From an uncultured Lachnospiraceae bacterium (GTDB lineage: Bacteria; Bacillota; Clostridia; Lachnospirales; Lachnospiraceae), in contig CAMEDC010000003.1 of the NCBI GenBank assembly GCA_945913255.1, positions 62,001-126,000 on the forward strand: a DNA stretch of 64,000 nt, in the 5' to 3' direction. The first letter of the stretch is position 1. Every line of letters starts with the position of its first letter. Below, piece after piece: positions 4,257 to 25,926 of the stretch. Below the pieces are notes generated by a model, which saw nothing but the letters and a program-made list of their open reading frames with translations, did no database searches and had not been told where the DNA came from. The position numbers and the translations under genes were made by a program.

Positions 4257-6338
4257 ATGAGGAATAAAGATACTAAGGAAGAGATGCGAAATAAAGGCAC
4301 AAAAGAAAAGAGAGTTGAGAAATTCAGGAAGAAAAGATTCTGGCCGGCAATCGTGGTATTTATCGGTGTAACTTTTTTCAGTGTCAGCATGGTGATGGCG
4401 TTTGTAGCCTTTTTTACCACTTATGTGGGAGCAACCAAAATTTCCAGGATGCATGAAGAAGCAGTATATGCGGGTGCAAGCTTTGACCGCCTGATGGAAA
4501 GCGGGATGACCGCAAAGGAAGCCGGTGAGGAACTGCAGGTGCTGCTGAACGGTGACACGGAACTGTATCTGCTGGACTCCGGCAGAAATATGATAATGTC
4601 GACAGGCACTTCCAGACCAAGATTTGACGTGTCAGTGGACTTTTCGCTGGGCGGGAATGAGGTAGTGCTTGTTGACTCTGTCGAAGAGAGCCTTGCGGCT
4701 TATAACGATGAGAGTCTGATGAACATCATAATGGACCTTGCTTTTAAGGGCGTATACGGAAAAAGTGAGTTTAGCAGAAGAGATGCCGGATGGCTGCAGG
4801 AAGGTATATTTGAGCAGAAATTCTGGATGCAGTCACCAATTAAGCAACCGAACTATTTTTTATATACAAGGCAGGAACTGAAAATTCAGCGTCAGGATAT
4901 TTTTTATATTGGTATGCTGGGTACGTTTGCATTGTTTGCATTTCTGGTGCCCAGTGCTTTTCTGTTTATCAATACCATTCGCGCCATTGTTGTGCAGCGG
5001 AGAATGGCAAATCTGATGTATCTGGATATCGTTACGGGTGGCCGAAACTGGATTTACTTTCAGGATATGGCTGGTAAGATTGTGACCAGACATAGAAACA
5101 GAAGGAAGACATATGCCGTTGTTGAACTGCATATGGAGAGATATCATAACTACTGTGCCTGCTATGGCGTGAGTGCCGGGGAAGAATTGCTGGAAAGCAT
5201 GGATGGATTCCTGGAGGCAAGAACGGATAAGGGAGAATTGCATGCCAGGTATGAGGGGGCAGACTTTGCCCTGCTGTTCTGTTGTAAAGGGGAGAGCGAG
5301 CAGGAGTGCCGGGAAAAGATTCTAAGGAGAGTTCGTTCTTTGCTGGCAGAGCTGACAGGATTAAGACCGGAACAGAAGCTTCACTTTCATGCAGGAATCT
5401 GCCTGATTTGCCCGAATCTCACGGAGAGAGGAAGACATTACGCGGACAGAAAGAATGTAGATATCAGAGAGATGTACAGCTGTGCCAATACGGCAAGATT
5501 GGAGACCAACTGCATGCTGGAGCAGAGATTTGCCTTTTTCGAACCGGAAATGCAGGAAAAACAGCTTTGGAGCCGGAGCGTGGTGGAAAACGTGGAGGCG
5601 GCGCTGCACCAGGAGGTCTTTCAGGTATATTTGCAGCCCAAATACAGTCCTTCCGACAAAAAAATTGTCGGAGCGGAGGCGTTGGCCCGTTGGGTTAACG
5701 AGGCTGGAGAGGTTATCCAGCCGGATCGCTTTATTTCGATTATGGAGGAAAACGGACTGATTACAAAGCTTGACGATTATATGATTTCCCATGTGGCGAA
5801 GCTGTTGTCAGAGTGGACGATTCAGGGGAAAAAGGTAATGCCGATTTCCATTAATCTGTCAAAGGCACATTTGTCACAGGAAGGGTTGGCAGAGCATATT
5901 TGCCGGCTTGTGGATGCCTATGGTCCCAGACATGAGCTGATTGAACTGGAGGTGAAGGAAGGCGCATTCTTTGAGGAAAAGGATATCCTGACTGAGACGG
6001 TAAAGCGGCTGAAGGACTATGGATTCGGTGTCTCTCTGGACGATTTCGGAACAGGCTATTCTTCCTTGAATTCCCTTAAGGATATGCAGTTGGATGCAGT
6101 GAAACTGGATACCGGCTTCTTCCGGGGCGAGAGCGATTCCAGGCGTGGGGAACTCATTGTACGGGAAGTGATTCGAATGGTTAGAGGTTTAGATATGCGC
6201 GTAGTTGCAGAGGGAGTCGAAAAAGAGGAACAGGTTGATTTTCTGACAGAATCCGGGTGTGATATGATACAGGGATTTTATTTTGCCAGACCAATGCCGG
6301 TGTGCGAGTTTGAGAAAAAAGTGGAGATGGATGGCTGA
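4257..6338 (+). CDS. Membrane GGDEF-like/EAL cyclic-di-GMP phosphodiesterase
   Basis: The 693-residue protein has two transmembrane segments (about residues 25-50 and 222-245) around an extracytoplasmic sensor region, then a GGDEF-like domain and an EAL domain. The GGDEF signature is degenerate (EGADF), so cyclase activity is unlikely; it may bind GTP or be structural. The EAL domain looks intact: GAEALARW, an Asn in SINLSKAHL, a Glu in LEVKEG, DDFGTGYSSL, KLD and VAEGVE are all present, as expected of active phosphodiesterases. It lies 25 bases after the HD-GYP gene and overlaps the next gene by one base, so the three genes are almost certainly one operon. Confidence 0.87.
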   Translation: MRNKDTKEEMRNKGTKEKRVEKFRKKRFWPAIVVFIGVTFFSVSMVMAFVAFFTTYVGATKISRMHEEAVYAGASFDRLMESGMTAKEAGEELQVLLNGDTELYLLDSGRNMIMSTGTSRPRFDVSVDFSLGGNEVVLVDSVEESLAAYNDESLMNIIMDLAFKGVYGKSEFSRRDAGWLQEGIFEQKFWMQSPIKQPNYFLYTRQELKIQRQDIFYIGMLGTFALFAFLVPSAFLFINTIRAIVVQRRMANLMYLDIVTGGRNWIYFQDMAGKIVTRHRNRRKTYAVVELHMERYHNYCACYGVSAGEELLESMDGFLEARTDKGELHARYEGADFALLFCCKGESEQECREKILRRVRSLLAELTGLRPEQKLHFHAGICLICPNLTERGRHYADRKNVDIREMYSCANTARLETNCMLEQRFAFFEPEMQEKQLWSRSVVENVEAALHQEVFQVYLQPKYSPSDKKIVGAEALARWVNEAGEVIQPDRFISIMEENGLITKLDDYMISHVAKLLSEWTIQGKKVMPISINLSKAHLSQEGLAEHICRLVDAYGPRHELIELEVKEGAFFEEKDILTETVKRLKDYGFGVSLDDFGTGYSSLNSLKDMQLDAVKLDTGFFRGESDSRRGELIVREVIRMVRGLDMRVVAEGVEKEEQVDFLTESGCDMIQGFYFARPMPVCEFEKKVEMDG

Positions 6339-9300: not shown

Positions 9301-9526
9301 AGAAGAACTGACAGAGCTGTTAACGGGAATCAAAGAAGCCATGAATCAGTTCGATATTGACGGTGTGGATGAGCGTATGCGTGAACTGGAAAAGTGCAGG
9401 ATACCGAAACAGTGCGAGAAGTATATGGATACCTTAAGAGCGTGTGTTGCGGATGTCATGATGGATGAAGTGATGAGCACAGCCGAAGAGTTTATACGTG
9501 CATTGGCATCCGATACGGACAGGTGA
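6338..9526 (+). CDS. Hybrid sensor histidine kinase (7TM - PAS-like - HisKA - HATPase - REC - HPt)
   Basis: This 1062-residue membrane kinase starts with seven predicted transmembrane helices (about residues 1-220, resembling the histidine-kinase 7TM sensor), then a PAS-like linker, a HisKA domain (SNMSHEIRTPMN), and an ATPase domain with N box (NNAIKF), DTGQGI and GTGLGLAI. A receiver-like stretch with no obvious phospho-acceptor (about 575-700) precedes an intact receiver (MDHMMPVMDG, about 715-845) and a C-terminal HPt domain (HALKNTARMIGA, about 895-980). The start ATG overlaps the preceding TGA. All relay steps are present in one chain; the final output is probably the neighbouring HD-GYP protein, whose HPt is about as similar as a recent duplicate. 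Confidence 0.87.
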   Translation: MHNLLIILQYIGIIVLFWEARYVLCQKPSRQQNLMMLTIFSLLVNFIGYLFEMQARSMGEALQAVKFIYLGKPFIVLGIFLFIMEYCRVFMPRWLKQLLTVCHMAVSFLVLTCEHNRLYYASIDFVDDGIFPHLVLGHGPVYLLYHGVVALYFIVMFAVCFRRFIVVKSQAEKRRIVYFFLILIVMMTGLLGFMSGKTRGYDSTLIAYLVSILLIGISLFHDRLLDTLSMAKDQAIDELSDGLIVLNRDNEIIYCNRQAERLYAYAGTSNKSEALEKLDDCILNKQMIFTGNLVYEVQSRLLTEKNIYYGKMYVLKDITESYHFTKHAQEQAEIMKALKDQAETANQAKSAFVSNMSHEIRTPMNAIVGMTEILLREELPPQDRGYLMNIKRSGNALLNIINDILDFSKIESGRMELVEEEYETMSMLCDLSMIFLTRIGEKKVELLFDIDEKLPQKLWGDSLRIRQVIINIVNNAIKFTDTGYVKLQILVGKVSGDDMELLVSVSDTGQGIREEDLGKLFGSFQQVDTKKNHGKEGTGLGLAISKQLVEMMGGKIGVKSTYGEGSEFYFNIHQKIEGEEPAAEIHDKAIEARLRVGGFFEKASLGEMLCRVAERYHVTCIPYGQWKETREPLDYFFTDVHGYALLEEEIKQYREQMGEICILQNPMLEECSADGVTLLNKPLYSLNFCQAINHEMPDFGEVTEEYRSFTAPEASVLIVDDNEMNLKVAVGLLQPLGMKIDTAESGKRALQMIQKKKYHIIFMDHMMPVMDGIETTQKLRAMEGEYYHNVPVVALTANALTDAREKFTRAGMDDFVAKPIEMKEICNCIKKWLPRELVLKAADGTGRENAAEEQPQEILKEEAELLGSAGIDAEAGIRCSGGEKLWRSLLGDFYKLIDVKANKLEKCLADGLIRDYTIEVHALKNTARMIGANDLSEWFHRMEDCGNGQDVETITKETPELLQAFRSIKDVLRPYGEIQNQEKREASEEELTELLTGIKEAMNQFDIDGVDERMRELEKCRIPKQCEKYMDTLRACVADVMMDEVMSTAEEFIRALASDTDR

Positions 9527-15289: not shown

Positions 15290-15556
15290 AGGAATAAGAG
15301 AAATGCAAAGAACGGAAAGAGTACTTTTTCGAAAAGATGCCAGAGAGAAACCGTAGGTGTGCTGTGAGCGGTTTTCATCGGAGAAAAGGGAAGTGCATCC
15401 GGGAGCAGGTTTGCAGAGTGTGGTGGAAAACTACAGGTAGGTGAACCCGTGAGCGCGCGTTAAGCGAATGGAGTGAAAGGTATTTTATTTACCTTTAATG
15501 AGAGTGGAACCGCGGATAAATTCGTCTCTTGGGATGGATTTGTCCGTTTTTCTTTT
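15290..15556 (+). promoter_or_regulatory. T-box leader, cysteine-specific, before cysE-cysS
   Basis: The T-box core AGAGTGGAACCGCGG is at 15501-15515. It is followed by an intrinsic terminator whose 15-bp stem (15514-15528 with 15531-15545) competes with it and ends in a T run. The TGGA of the core can pair with a UCCA acceptor end, as expected for tRNA-Cys, whose discriminator base is U. A TGC triplet at 15394-15396 in the stem I region is a good candidate specifier codon, though its loop was not folded. Uncharged tRNA-Cys should therefore switch on serine acetyltransferase and cysteinyl-tRNA synthetase. The 5' boundary is approximate. Confidence 0.9.
15514..15556 (+). terminator. T-box regulated intrinsic terminator
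   Basis: A 15-bp stem rich in G-U pairs with a two-base loop is followed by GTTTTTCTTTT. Its 5' arm overlaps the T-box core, so formation is exclusive with the antiterminator. Confidence 0.88.
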
Positions 15557-24072: not shown

Positions 24073-24145
24073 GCTGCTGTGGCTCAGTCGGTAGAGCGTC
24101 GCATTGGTAGTGCGGAGGTCACGGGTCCGATTCCCGTCAGCAGCT
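24073..24145 (+). tRNA. tRNA-Thr (anticodon GGT)
   Basis: A full cloverleaf can be drawn: acceptor GCTGCTG/CAGCAGC, D arm GCTC/GAGC, anticodon arm TCGCA-TTGGTAG-TGCGG giving anticodon GGT, variable AGGTC, T arm ACGGG-TCCGATT-CCCGT, discriminator T. The CCA end is not encoded. A T run follows directly. Confidence 0.95.
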
Positions 24146-24324: not shown

Positions 24325-24504
24325 TTACTTTGCTGATTTGTCCTTATCAATCATGGAATGCCGGTATACGGTCTTCATTACATCATCACTCTGCCAGCCA
24401 CCCATATGCAGGATATCAGCTTCCGGTACTCCAAGAGCAGACATGCGGCTTGCAAAGTAGTGCCGGAGCTTGTGCATACTGAAATGAGGTATTATCCAAT
24501 TATC
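24325..24504 (-). pseudogene. Tyrosine recombinase (integrase) C-terminal remnant
   Basis: The minus strand encodes about 59 residues in one frame, closed by stops on both sides. It carries the family's box II: HKLRHYFAS (His-x-x-Arg), then GGWQSDD (the His/Trp position) and VYRHSM with the nucleophilic Tyr. Everything N-terminal is missing: a stop codon precedes the fragment and the sequence beyond it does not continue. It lies 180 bases from the 3' end of tRNA-Thr, a classic integration target, so it is probably the scar of a lost island or prophage. It cannot be functional alone. Confidence 0.85.
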
Positions 24505-24581: not shown

Positions 24582-25754
24582 TCACTCCAACAGTTTCCGA
24601 TAAAAATTGTCAATGCAGATGGCACCGAAAGGGGCTGTAATCAGGATGGACAGAACCGCAACCGTTAAGACAATCTGCCCACAGGCAAGCCCCATTGTAA
24701 GAGGAATTGAGCCGATAGCTGCCTGTACGGTTGCCTTGGGTGTGTAAGCCAACATACAGAACAGTCTTTCACGTTTTGTGAGATTTGTTTTGAGCAGGGA
24801 AATGGAAACGCCCAACATGCGGAAGCACAGAGCGCCCAAAACAACGAATACAGGGGCTATGCCTGCGGAAATGGCATATTTTATGTCGACAGCGGCACCA
24901 ACAAGTACAAACAGGAATACTTCTGCACCTACCCACAGCTTGTTATATTTTCCGGATAATCTGATTGCCAGCCGGTCATACTTATGTTTTATGATTAGTC
25001 CAAGACTCATAATTGCCAGGAGACCGGAGATGGGAACAATACCTTCCAGCCGGTTCTGGACTTCCAGAAGCAGAAATGAAAAGCTGAGAATGATAAGCAA
25101 CTTAACAGAATCTCTCATATGGAATTTTTGGAAGAAGAGTACCAGAATGCTTCCTGCAAACACACCCAGCAGAATGCCGAGGGAAATCGAGACCGGGATT
25201 TGCAGAAAGCTGCCTGCAGATATGGTACCGCTGGAAGCAAGAGCAGTAAAGGCAGTAAAGACGACAATAACAAAGACATCGTCGACGGATGCTCCCGCCA
25301 GAATCAGCTGGGGAATACAATGTTCTCTGCCGTGGCCTTCTTCCATAAGCCGAATCATCCTGGGAACGACAACAGCCGGGGATACGGCAGCAATCACGCT
25401 TCCCATGATAGCAGCGTCTAAGGTGTTTACGCCAAGAAGCAGGGGAGCAAGAATAACAGTACCTGCAATTTCAACACAGGCAGGTACAAAGCACATGAGA
25501 ACGGCAGGTCTCCCCACTTTCTTCAAATCGGATATATCTAGGGATAAGCCAGCTCTTGTGAGGATGATAACCAGTGCAATCTGACGCAAATCAGCTGATA
25601 TTTCCAGAATGGACCCATCAATCAGGTTGAGTGCATGAGGACCGAGAACCATACCTACAATGATCATGCCGAGGAGACTCGGAAGCTTCAGCTTTGAGAA
25701 GATACTTCCCAGCAATAATCCCGACAACAAAATAATGGCAATACTTGTTAGCAT
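24582..25754 (-). CDS. Cation:proton antiporter family protein, under fluoride riboswitch control
   Basis: A 390-residue membrane protein with about 12 transmembrane helices and the fold-typical order of monovalent cation/proton antiporters (CPA superfamily): LLLGSIFSKLKLPSLLGMII near the N-terminus, a TRAGLSLD stretch, and the ASVDDVFVIVVF segment whose paired Asp residues occupy the ion site of this group. ATG 25754 has AGGAGG six bases upstream. The 3' end is 77 bases from the integrase remnant. The leader is a fluoride riboswitch, so the likely role is fluoride resistance, either exporting fluoride or offsetting the acid load it brings; the sequence alone does not say which. The usual crcB or CLC-F genes are not beside it. 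Confidence 0.85.
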   Translation of the reverse strand: MLTSIAIILLSGLLLGSIFSKLKLPSLLGMIIVGMVLGPHALNLIDGSILEISADLRQIALVIILTRAGLSLDISDLKKVGRPAVLMCFVPACVEIAGTVILAPLLLGVNTLDAAIMGSVIAAVSPAVVVPRMIRLMEEGHGREHCIPQLILAGASVDDVFVIVVFTAFTALASSGTISAGSFLQIPVSISLGILLGVFAGSILVLFFQKFHMRDSVKLLIILSFSFLLLEVQNRLEGIVPISGLLAIMSLGLIIKHKYDRLAIRLSGKYNKLWVGAEVFLFVLVGAAVDIKYAISAGIAPVFVVLGALCFRMLGVSISLLKTNLTKRERLFCMLAYTPKATVQAAIGSIPLTMGLACGQIVLTVAVLSILITAPFGAICIDNFYRKLLE

Positions 25755-25800: not shown

Positions 25801-25890
25801 TAAAAAAGCTGATAATTTCTGCATGGATTTGCAGAAGTCATCAGCATAAATGCGGTTTAGGTTTCCCAGGGGAGAACTTCATTCCCAACT
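25801..25890 (-). promoter_or_regulatory. Fluoride (crcB-type) riboswitch with terminator platform
   Basis: Read on the minus strand, the leader begins GGGAATGAAGTTCTCCC (25886-25870) and continues to AAACCGC, a GCAT/ATGC hairpin and GCTGATGACTTCTGC (25845-25831). This matches the crcB motif: a GGGA/TCCC stem, the AAACCGC joint and GCTGATGAC. The loop GAAGTT (25880-25875) pairs with GACTTC (25839-25834), the pseudoknot that defines the fold. GCTGATGACTTCTGC also pairs with GCAGAAATTATCAGC (25822-25808) to form a terminator followed by six U, so aptamer folding and termination exclude each other. Fluoride should therefore turn on the antiporter. Confidence 0.92.
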
Positions 25891-25896
25891 GGAAGT

Positions 25897-25926
25897 ATTA
25901 TAGCAGAGAGAAAGTGAATGTGTCAA
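25897..25926 (-). promoter_or_regulatory. Sigma-A promoter of the riboswitch-antiporter transcript
   Basis: On the minus strand TTGACA (25926-25921) and TATAAT (25902-25897) are separated by 18 bases; transcription would start a few bases before the aptamer. Confidence 0.85.

Follow-up and report, generated by a model that had tools for sequence, protein, structure and literature searches.

Two classes of fluoride export proteins have been named (PMC13104614), and a fluoride exporter, either Fluc or CLC-F, was found in more than 85% of strains in a survey cited in a 2024 review (PMC11139923). In passages of this review, Fluc is described as using the membrane potential, Fluc and CLC-F as usually mutually exclusive, with about 3% of strains carrying both, and Na+/H+ antiporters, citing Baker 2012, as the next-most common class linked to fluoride riboswitches after the exporters, where they are read as help with pH (PMC11139923). 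One such example has been described in C. difficile, where an operon encoding a CLC protein and an NhaP-type antiporter lies behind a fluoride riboswitch (PMC11477304, in part), while the genes listed behind the motif in a passage of another source include mutS and genes for K+ or Cl- transport and formate hydrogen lyase (PMC2864571). Among antiporters of the NHA type, the ion site of NHA2 is described in part of PMC8850199 as an aspartate pair with a glutamate-arginine pair, and exchange as electroneutral. Titles and abstract openings of the literature, with subscription papers and preprints lying outside, describe no antiporter other than CLC-F that exports fluoride or replaces an exporter, and these together with text passages hold no statement on how close the riboswitch-linked antiporters are to SLC9B/NHA2.

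The locus described here belongs to this riboswitch-antiporter class as a regular member, and the gene class is not new. It lies on the minus strand of the window, by which we mean the whole stretch of 64,000 nucleotides that was analysed. The leader begins with a sigma-A type promoter at 25926..25897, in which TTGACA and TATAAT match the consensus in 12/12 positions with a spacer of 18 and a TG before the -10 element; it is the only perfect site among three promoter-like sites in the 321 bases scanned, where shuffles gave 0.9 +/- 0.9. Directly downstream starts a fluoride riboswitch aptamer (RF01734, 25895..25825), which scored 45.6 bits (gathering score 34, E 2e-9) over the full model, 1-64, when Rfam's cmscan was run on the whole window, and which was also read in an alignment with 40 relatives. 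P1 and P3 are present in the Rfam alignment, and by eye the pseudoknot strand GAAGTT (25880-25875), which falls in mostly conserved columns among the 40 relatives, can pair with GACTTC (25839-25834). The second of these strands is shared with an intrinsic terminator at 25845-25802, whose arms read GCTGATGA.TTCTGCA and TGCAGAA.TTATCAGC, then TTTTTT, giving a stem of 8+7 bp with a 1x1 mismatch, a 6-nt loop and six T. This hairpin folds at -20.6 kcal/mol (z -6.4), and none of 200 shuffles was equally stable; it was absent from the output of a simple terminator scan (0 found), probably because the 1-nt mismatch breaks the stem. Since its 5' arm contains P3 bases 25845-25844 as well as the pseudoknot strand at 25839-25834, the aptamer and the terminator are mutually exclusive. 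A plain fold of 25895-25825, in a model that leaves pseudoknots aside, gave other pairs and was not notable (z -0.85, 41/200 shuffles as stable). A Shine-Dalgarno sequence, AGGAGG, follows at 25766-25761.

The first-pass annotation had proposed a crcB-class aptamer with this pseudoknot and a competing terminator, placed directly behind a consensus promoter, and each of these elements was recovered. A chance aptamer was ruled out, as score, promoter, terminator and conservation all agree. Given this anatomy and the known behaviour of the riboswitch class, we infer that the leader is a transcriptional ON fluoride switch. Between P1 and AACCGC, the aptamer also carries a small extra hairpin at about 25868-25858, seen in the alignment with 40 relatives. 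The same hairpin is present in most Clostridia aptamers that were read, including those before CLC-F and crcB, so that it was rejected as an antiporter-specific feature; across 67 aptamers (L173-L279), its mean Watson-Crick stem is 3.7, compared with 1.7 in shuffles.

The gene behind this leader (25754..24582, minus strand) encodes a protein of 390 residues that was assigned to the CPA2 antiporters, SLC9B/NHA-like, by its match to Pfam Na_H_Exchanger (PF00999, 139.8 bits) and by NHA2 as the nearest solved structure. No NCBIfam model was over its cut-off (TIGR00932, the CPA2 model, reached 47.7 bits vs 238.3, and the best match 54.4 vs 309). The possibility that the product is CrcB or CLC-F was ruled out, as it matches PF00999 and neither PF02537 nor PF00654, in agreement with the earlier proposal that a CPA antiporter takes the place of crcB or CLC-F at this locus. 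Among solved proteins, human SLC9B2/NHA2 (7b4l) is closest, with an E-value of 2e-37 when the single sequence was searched and 4e-57 when a 38-sequence profile was used. When an AlphaFold2 model of the antiporter (mean pLDDT 85) was searched with Foldseek, NHA2 again ranked first by E-value at a TM score of 0.81, followed by MjNhaP1 and PaNhaP at 0.84-0.88. Residues E95, S125, D158, D159, R312 and K340 occupy invariant columns in the alignment of 38 antiporters (A1, from which L088, with one internal stop, was excluded), and in the profile alignment D158, D159, E95, R312, S125 and K340 stand opposite D278, D279, E215, R432, S245 and K460 of human NHA2. Judged by sequence, the antiporter is a fully equipped NHA-type exchanger.

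The host assembly (96.5% complete, 101 contigs) holds a single fluoride riboswitch, and searches of it with PF02537 (CrcB) and PF00654 (CLC) gave 0 matches each; the same searches for the fluoride riboswitch, CrcB and CLC in 14 control genomes found the family in 4, 10 and 12 of them, respectively. Elsewhere in the window, a T-box leader (121.9 bits) lies at 15299-15532 on the plus strand. Downstream of the antiporter gene, a 59-residue C-terminal remnant of a tyrosine recombinase (24325-24504, minus strand) lies between it and a tRNA-Thr(GGT) at 24073-24145 (plus strand), an arrangement such as might be left by an old integrated element. The search for an att site as a direct repeat of the tRNA-Thr 3' end found none; there was one match with 2 mismatches, at 9316, where 0.51 is expected by chance.

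The pairing seen at this locus was then compared across the family, in a sample of 250 genomes from 249 genera searched for riboswitches with Infernal's stricter filters. A fluoride riboswitch match was found in 55/250 genomes, and it was over the cut-off in 48 genomes at 50 sites, of which 45 precede an orthologue of the antiporter, three a CLC-F gene with the motifs GREGV/GEVTP, one a crcB gene (in G091) and one a MutS-like gene. The first-pass annotation had regarded the pairing as unusual, a view that finds no support within the gene's own family, where the antiporter is the target at 45/50 over-cut-off sites, nor in the passage of PMC11139923 that ranks the class next-most common. All antiporter-linked sites but one (44/45) lie within 294 nt of the gene; at the remaining site (L107), the distance is 1,982 nt and a group II intron reading frame (RVT_1, GIIM) lies between. 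In none of the 44 linked family genomes does an over-cut-off riboswitch stand before another gene.

Relatives beyond this sample show a similar picture. Among 80 named loci, the best 80 of at least 566 relatives, some of which come from the same genomes as those with numbered handles in the sample, an Rfam fluoride match lies upstream in 58, close by in 57, and the riboswitch-positive named relatives include Clostridia, Parabacteroides and other Bacteroidales. The exception in distance is Anaerotignum neopropionicum (L184 720-4167), where the riboswitch lies 2.2 kb upstream of the antiporter with other genes between; on one strand, the riboswitch is followed by a weak NifU-like frame that falls slightly short of the Pfam cut-off, then by GGGtGRT (PF14057), Usp and the antiporter. 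Loci of the class sample (L260-L279, 20 of 29 new ones) gave a match in 17/20. No riboswitch match was found under Infernal's stricter filters in 23/67 antiporter genomes of the family sample, and no Rfam riboswitch in 22/80 of the named loci, the best 80 of at least 566 relatives; fluoride control of the antiporter is therefore not universal. Several variants of the arrangement were also observed: tandem fluoride aptamers (4736-4810 and 4871-4943) before a single antiporter gene in L093, an additional fluoride riboswitch (4634-4694) located downstream of the gene in L193, and the antiporter leaders of L172 and L197, where the terminator half is kept and the 5' half of the riboswitch is missing.

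A quick maximum-likelihood tree of the antiporters was built from 119 of 123 candidate rows, leaving out L170, L172, L215 and L279 (a stop in the matched stretch, or short), with support given by SH-aLRT only, and 51/115 inner branches are weak. Within it, a deep clade of 17 rows (support 99) has no extra hairpin in any of the 11 rows with a recognised aptamer, whereas most recognised aptamers of the other clades carry one; three Bacteroidota genes (support 100) adjoin a Clostridium gene (support 91), and their aptamers are also without the hairpin. Aptamers were subtyped by regular expression, a rough procedure that labelled L196, L197, L274 and L301 wrongly as plain and gave L184 and others no subtype despite an Rfam match, so that only clear cases were used. 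As different lineages carry different aptamer subtypes, the link with fluoride appears to hold across the antiporter clade.

The distribution of the antiporter was also compared with that of the known exporters. The family sample (n=250) holds the antiporter in 67 genomes, crcB in 46 and CLC-F in 12, and every pairwise overlap is 0. With genomes treated as independent, the antiporter would be expected together with crcB in 12.3 genomes (P=9.9e-8) and with CLC-F in 3.2 (P=0.021); for crcB or CLC-F taken together the expectation is 15.5 (P=7e-10, uncorrected for phylogeny). Antiporters were counted at E <= 1e-20 in the family and genus samples and at E <= 1e-60 in the class sample; the 67 are 68 genomes minus G002, which holds a 26% identical paralogue, and they include five partial or broken genes (G008, G063, G131, G169 and G205). 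Dropping these five leaves 62 genomes and an overlap with crcB that is still 0 (P=4e-7), and when completeness of 90% or more and contamination of 5% or less were required of each genome, P for crcB was 1.8e-6. CLC-F was searched in the family sample only, at E <= 1e-72, with a query whose nearest solved structure is CLC-F 6d0j, a search by which a divergent CLC-F could be missed. Other CLC proteins served as a control and occur with the antiporter about as often as expected (37 seen vs 35.4), and with crcB more often than expected (34 seen vs 24.3).

Zero overlap between the antiporter and crcB was likewise found in a genus sample (n=101; 20 and 15 genomes, P=0.027, or 0.036 with the 14 over-cut-off crcB) and in a class sample (n=260; 41 and 49 genomes, P=8.3e-5, or 1.0e-4 with the 48 over-cut-off crcB; two antiporter matches, G367 and G593, being partial), with P values that also treat genomes as independent. 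Eight families of the class sample hold both the antiporter and crcB, in different genomes. In its distribution, the antiporter thus behaves like a third member of the mutually exclusive set of Fluc and CLC-F, although the NhaP-type antiporter of C. difficile, if of the same clade, would count against exclusivity. The new content of the present analysis is that the antiporter is the usual riboswitch target in the family sample and was never found there with the known exporters. These comparative data lend backing to the suggestion, made from the window's sequence, that the gene may serve in fluoride resistance. Half of the family sample (125/250 genomes) holds none of antiporter, crcB and CLC-F, so none of the three is required.

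Among the 67 antiporter genomes, 30 have no CLC and no CrcB match, the window's genome included, and 37 have a CLC protein. That these proteins are hidden CLC-F was rejected on their motifs, set against the GREGT/V and GEVTP of CLC-F, and on the search at E <= 1e-72 (0/67). One CLC was read from each of 35 genomes (G065, G205 and second copies lying outside this set), and 24 of these have GREGA or GKEGA with GEIVP or GEVVP, while 11 have GREGP. The GREGA proteins resemble CLC-F more closely (31-35% identity) than do those with GREGP and, by this likeness, may have a fluoride role of their own; no over-cut-off riboswitch of the family sample precedes a GREGA/GKEGA CLC gene. Proteins with these motifs were read in 26 cases (L111-L134, L059, L060), and the family sample contains many more of similar length.

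Taken together, the comparative genomics supports a reading, which we hold to be fairly probable, in which an ON fluoride riboswitch drives a single-gene unit and the NHA-type CPA2 antiporter stands in for Fluc or CLC-F as the fluoride-resistance transporter of the genome. When fluoride is absent, the terminator would form, sequestering the P3 arm together with one strand of the pseudoknot; when Mg-bound fluoride is present, the aptamer and pseudoknot would hold, the terminator would fail and the antiporter gene would be read. That fluoride turns the gene on is suggested by the leader's anatomy and by the known behaviour of the riboswitch class, and that the product then replaces an exporter is suggested by the genomic pattern. 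For the molecular step, electroneutral exchange of Na+ and H+, by which the pH gradient would be set, is the most likely candidate, at about an even chance, with direct export of fluoride as the main alternative at a distinctly lower probability and other routes taking the rest; both the direction of exchange and the ion transported are our inference. Fluoride arriving as HF would be trapped according to the pH gradient: as HF crosses the membrane and dissociates inside, the ratio of internal to external fluoride scales as 10 raised to the pH difference. By this reasoning, an exchanger that takes up H+ and expels Na+ would reduce trapping, at best to equality across the membrane, whereas exchange that alkalinises the cytoplasm would raise it. 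Fluc, driven by the membrane potential, can go below equality, so that the exclusion with Fluc points towards a strong effect of the antiporter, which may perhaps move fluoride itself; that its cation site is intact points towards Na+/H+ exchange.

The stand-in reading can be sharpened in a form compatible with its first part: the antiporter would export fluoride directly, using the NHA fold with H+ or Na+ as the driving ion, and bacteria would then have a third exporter family next to Fluc and CLC-F. We regard this as possible, if short of an even chance. It would account for the lack of over-cut-off riboswitches before other genes in the 44 linked genomes, for the 30/67 antiporter genomes that lack CLC and CrcB matches, and for an antiporter never found with crcB (three samples) or CLC-F (family sample), as a passage of PMC11139923 describes for Fluc and CLC-F. 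According to part of PMC9174904, one study has also proposed that Nha1 of Drosophila, which belongs to SLC9B, carries out H+-Cl- cotransport; the same part of that source finds no residue change favouring chloride in human NHA1, and the conserved site of the antiporter, with two Asp, Glu, Arg and Ser as in NHA2, is that of a cation/H+ exchanger. The same NHA2-type site suits the published reading of the gene class, given in a passage of PMC11139923, by which the antiporter is only auxiliary, serving pH or sodium homeostasis and offsetting acidification by HF without substituting for an exporter; the CLC paired with an NhaP-type antiporter in C. difficile (PMC11477304, in part) also fits. An auxiliary gene, however, should join exporters at random or more often, and its overlap with crcB is 0 in 250, 101 and 260 genomes, whereas the remaining CLC proteins accompany the antiporter at the expected frequency; we consider this reading unlikely.

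It could also be argued that the avoidance of crcB is an effect of lineage or habitat and not of shared function, since the genomes are not independent and antiporter, crcB and CLC-F are all absent from half of the family sample. Zero overlap nevertheless recurs inside a single genus, though with P at only 0.027, and across the 8 families holding both kinds, and the aptamer subtype before genes of the antiporter clade varies from lineage to lineage, which together make a lineage or habitat effect improbable. In its general form, the proposal would be that bacteria have a third fluoride exporter in a widespread NHA/SLC9B-type clade with members in Clostridia, Bacteroidota, Brachyspira and elsewhere, usually under riboswitch control and interchangeable with Fluc and CLC-F, which we put forward tentatively, as something less than probable. 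If true, an ion-exchanger fold known for Na+ would be able to clear a halide. The stand-in reading has consequences of its own, as 58/250 genomes of the family sample have Fluc or CLC-F and 67 others have the antiporter instead: if the antiporter is a working resistance gene, these anaerobes would owe fluoride tolerance to a source that has so far gone uncounted, and genomes that lack other exporters would allow a direct test of what riboswitch-linked Na+/H+ antiporters do.

Compared with the crcB motif as described by RF01734, the leader of the window has in common the aptamer core, P1, P3, the pseudoknot and an overlapping terminator, and differs by the small extra hairpin between P1 and AACCGC. 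Relative to SLC9B2/NHA2, with which it shares the DD motif and the Glu-Arg pair at 30-32% identity across about 419 aligned columns, the antiporter is a bacterial protein of 390 residues that starts opposite about residue 115 of NHA2, with no counterpart of the residues before, has Y337 at the position of W457, and is encoded under a fluoride riboswitch. With the riboswitch-linked Na+/H+ antiporters of PMC11139923, citing Baker 2012, as described in passages of that review, it shares a fluoride riboswitch directly before a CPA antiporter, the difference being that here the antiporter stands alone, in a genome without a Fluc or CLC match. Lastly, while the protein is unrelated to Fluc/CrcB and CLC-F, it is like them in its control by a fluoride riboswitch and in its mutual exclusion with them in genomes.
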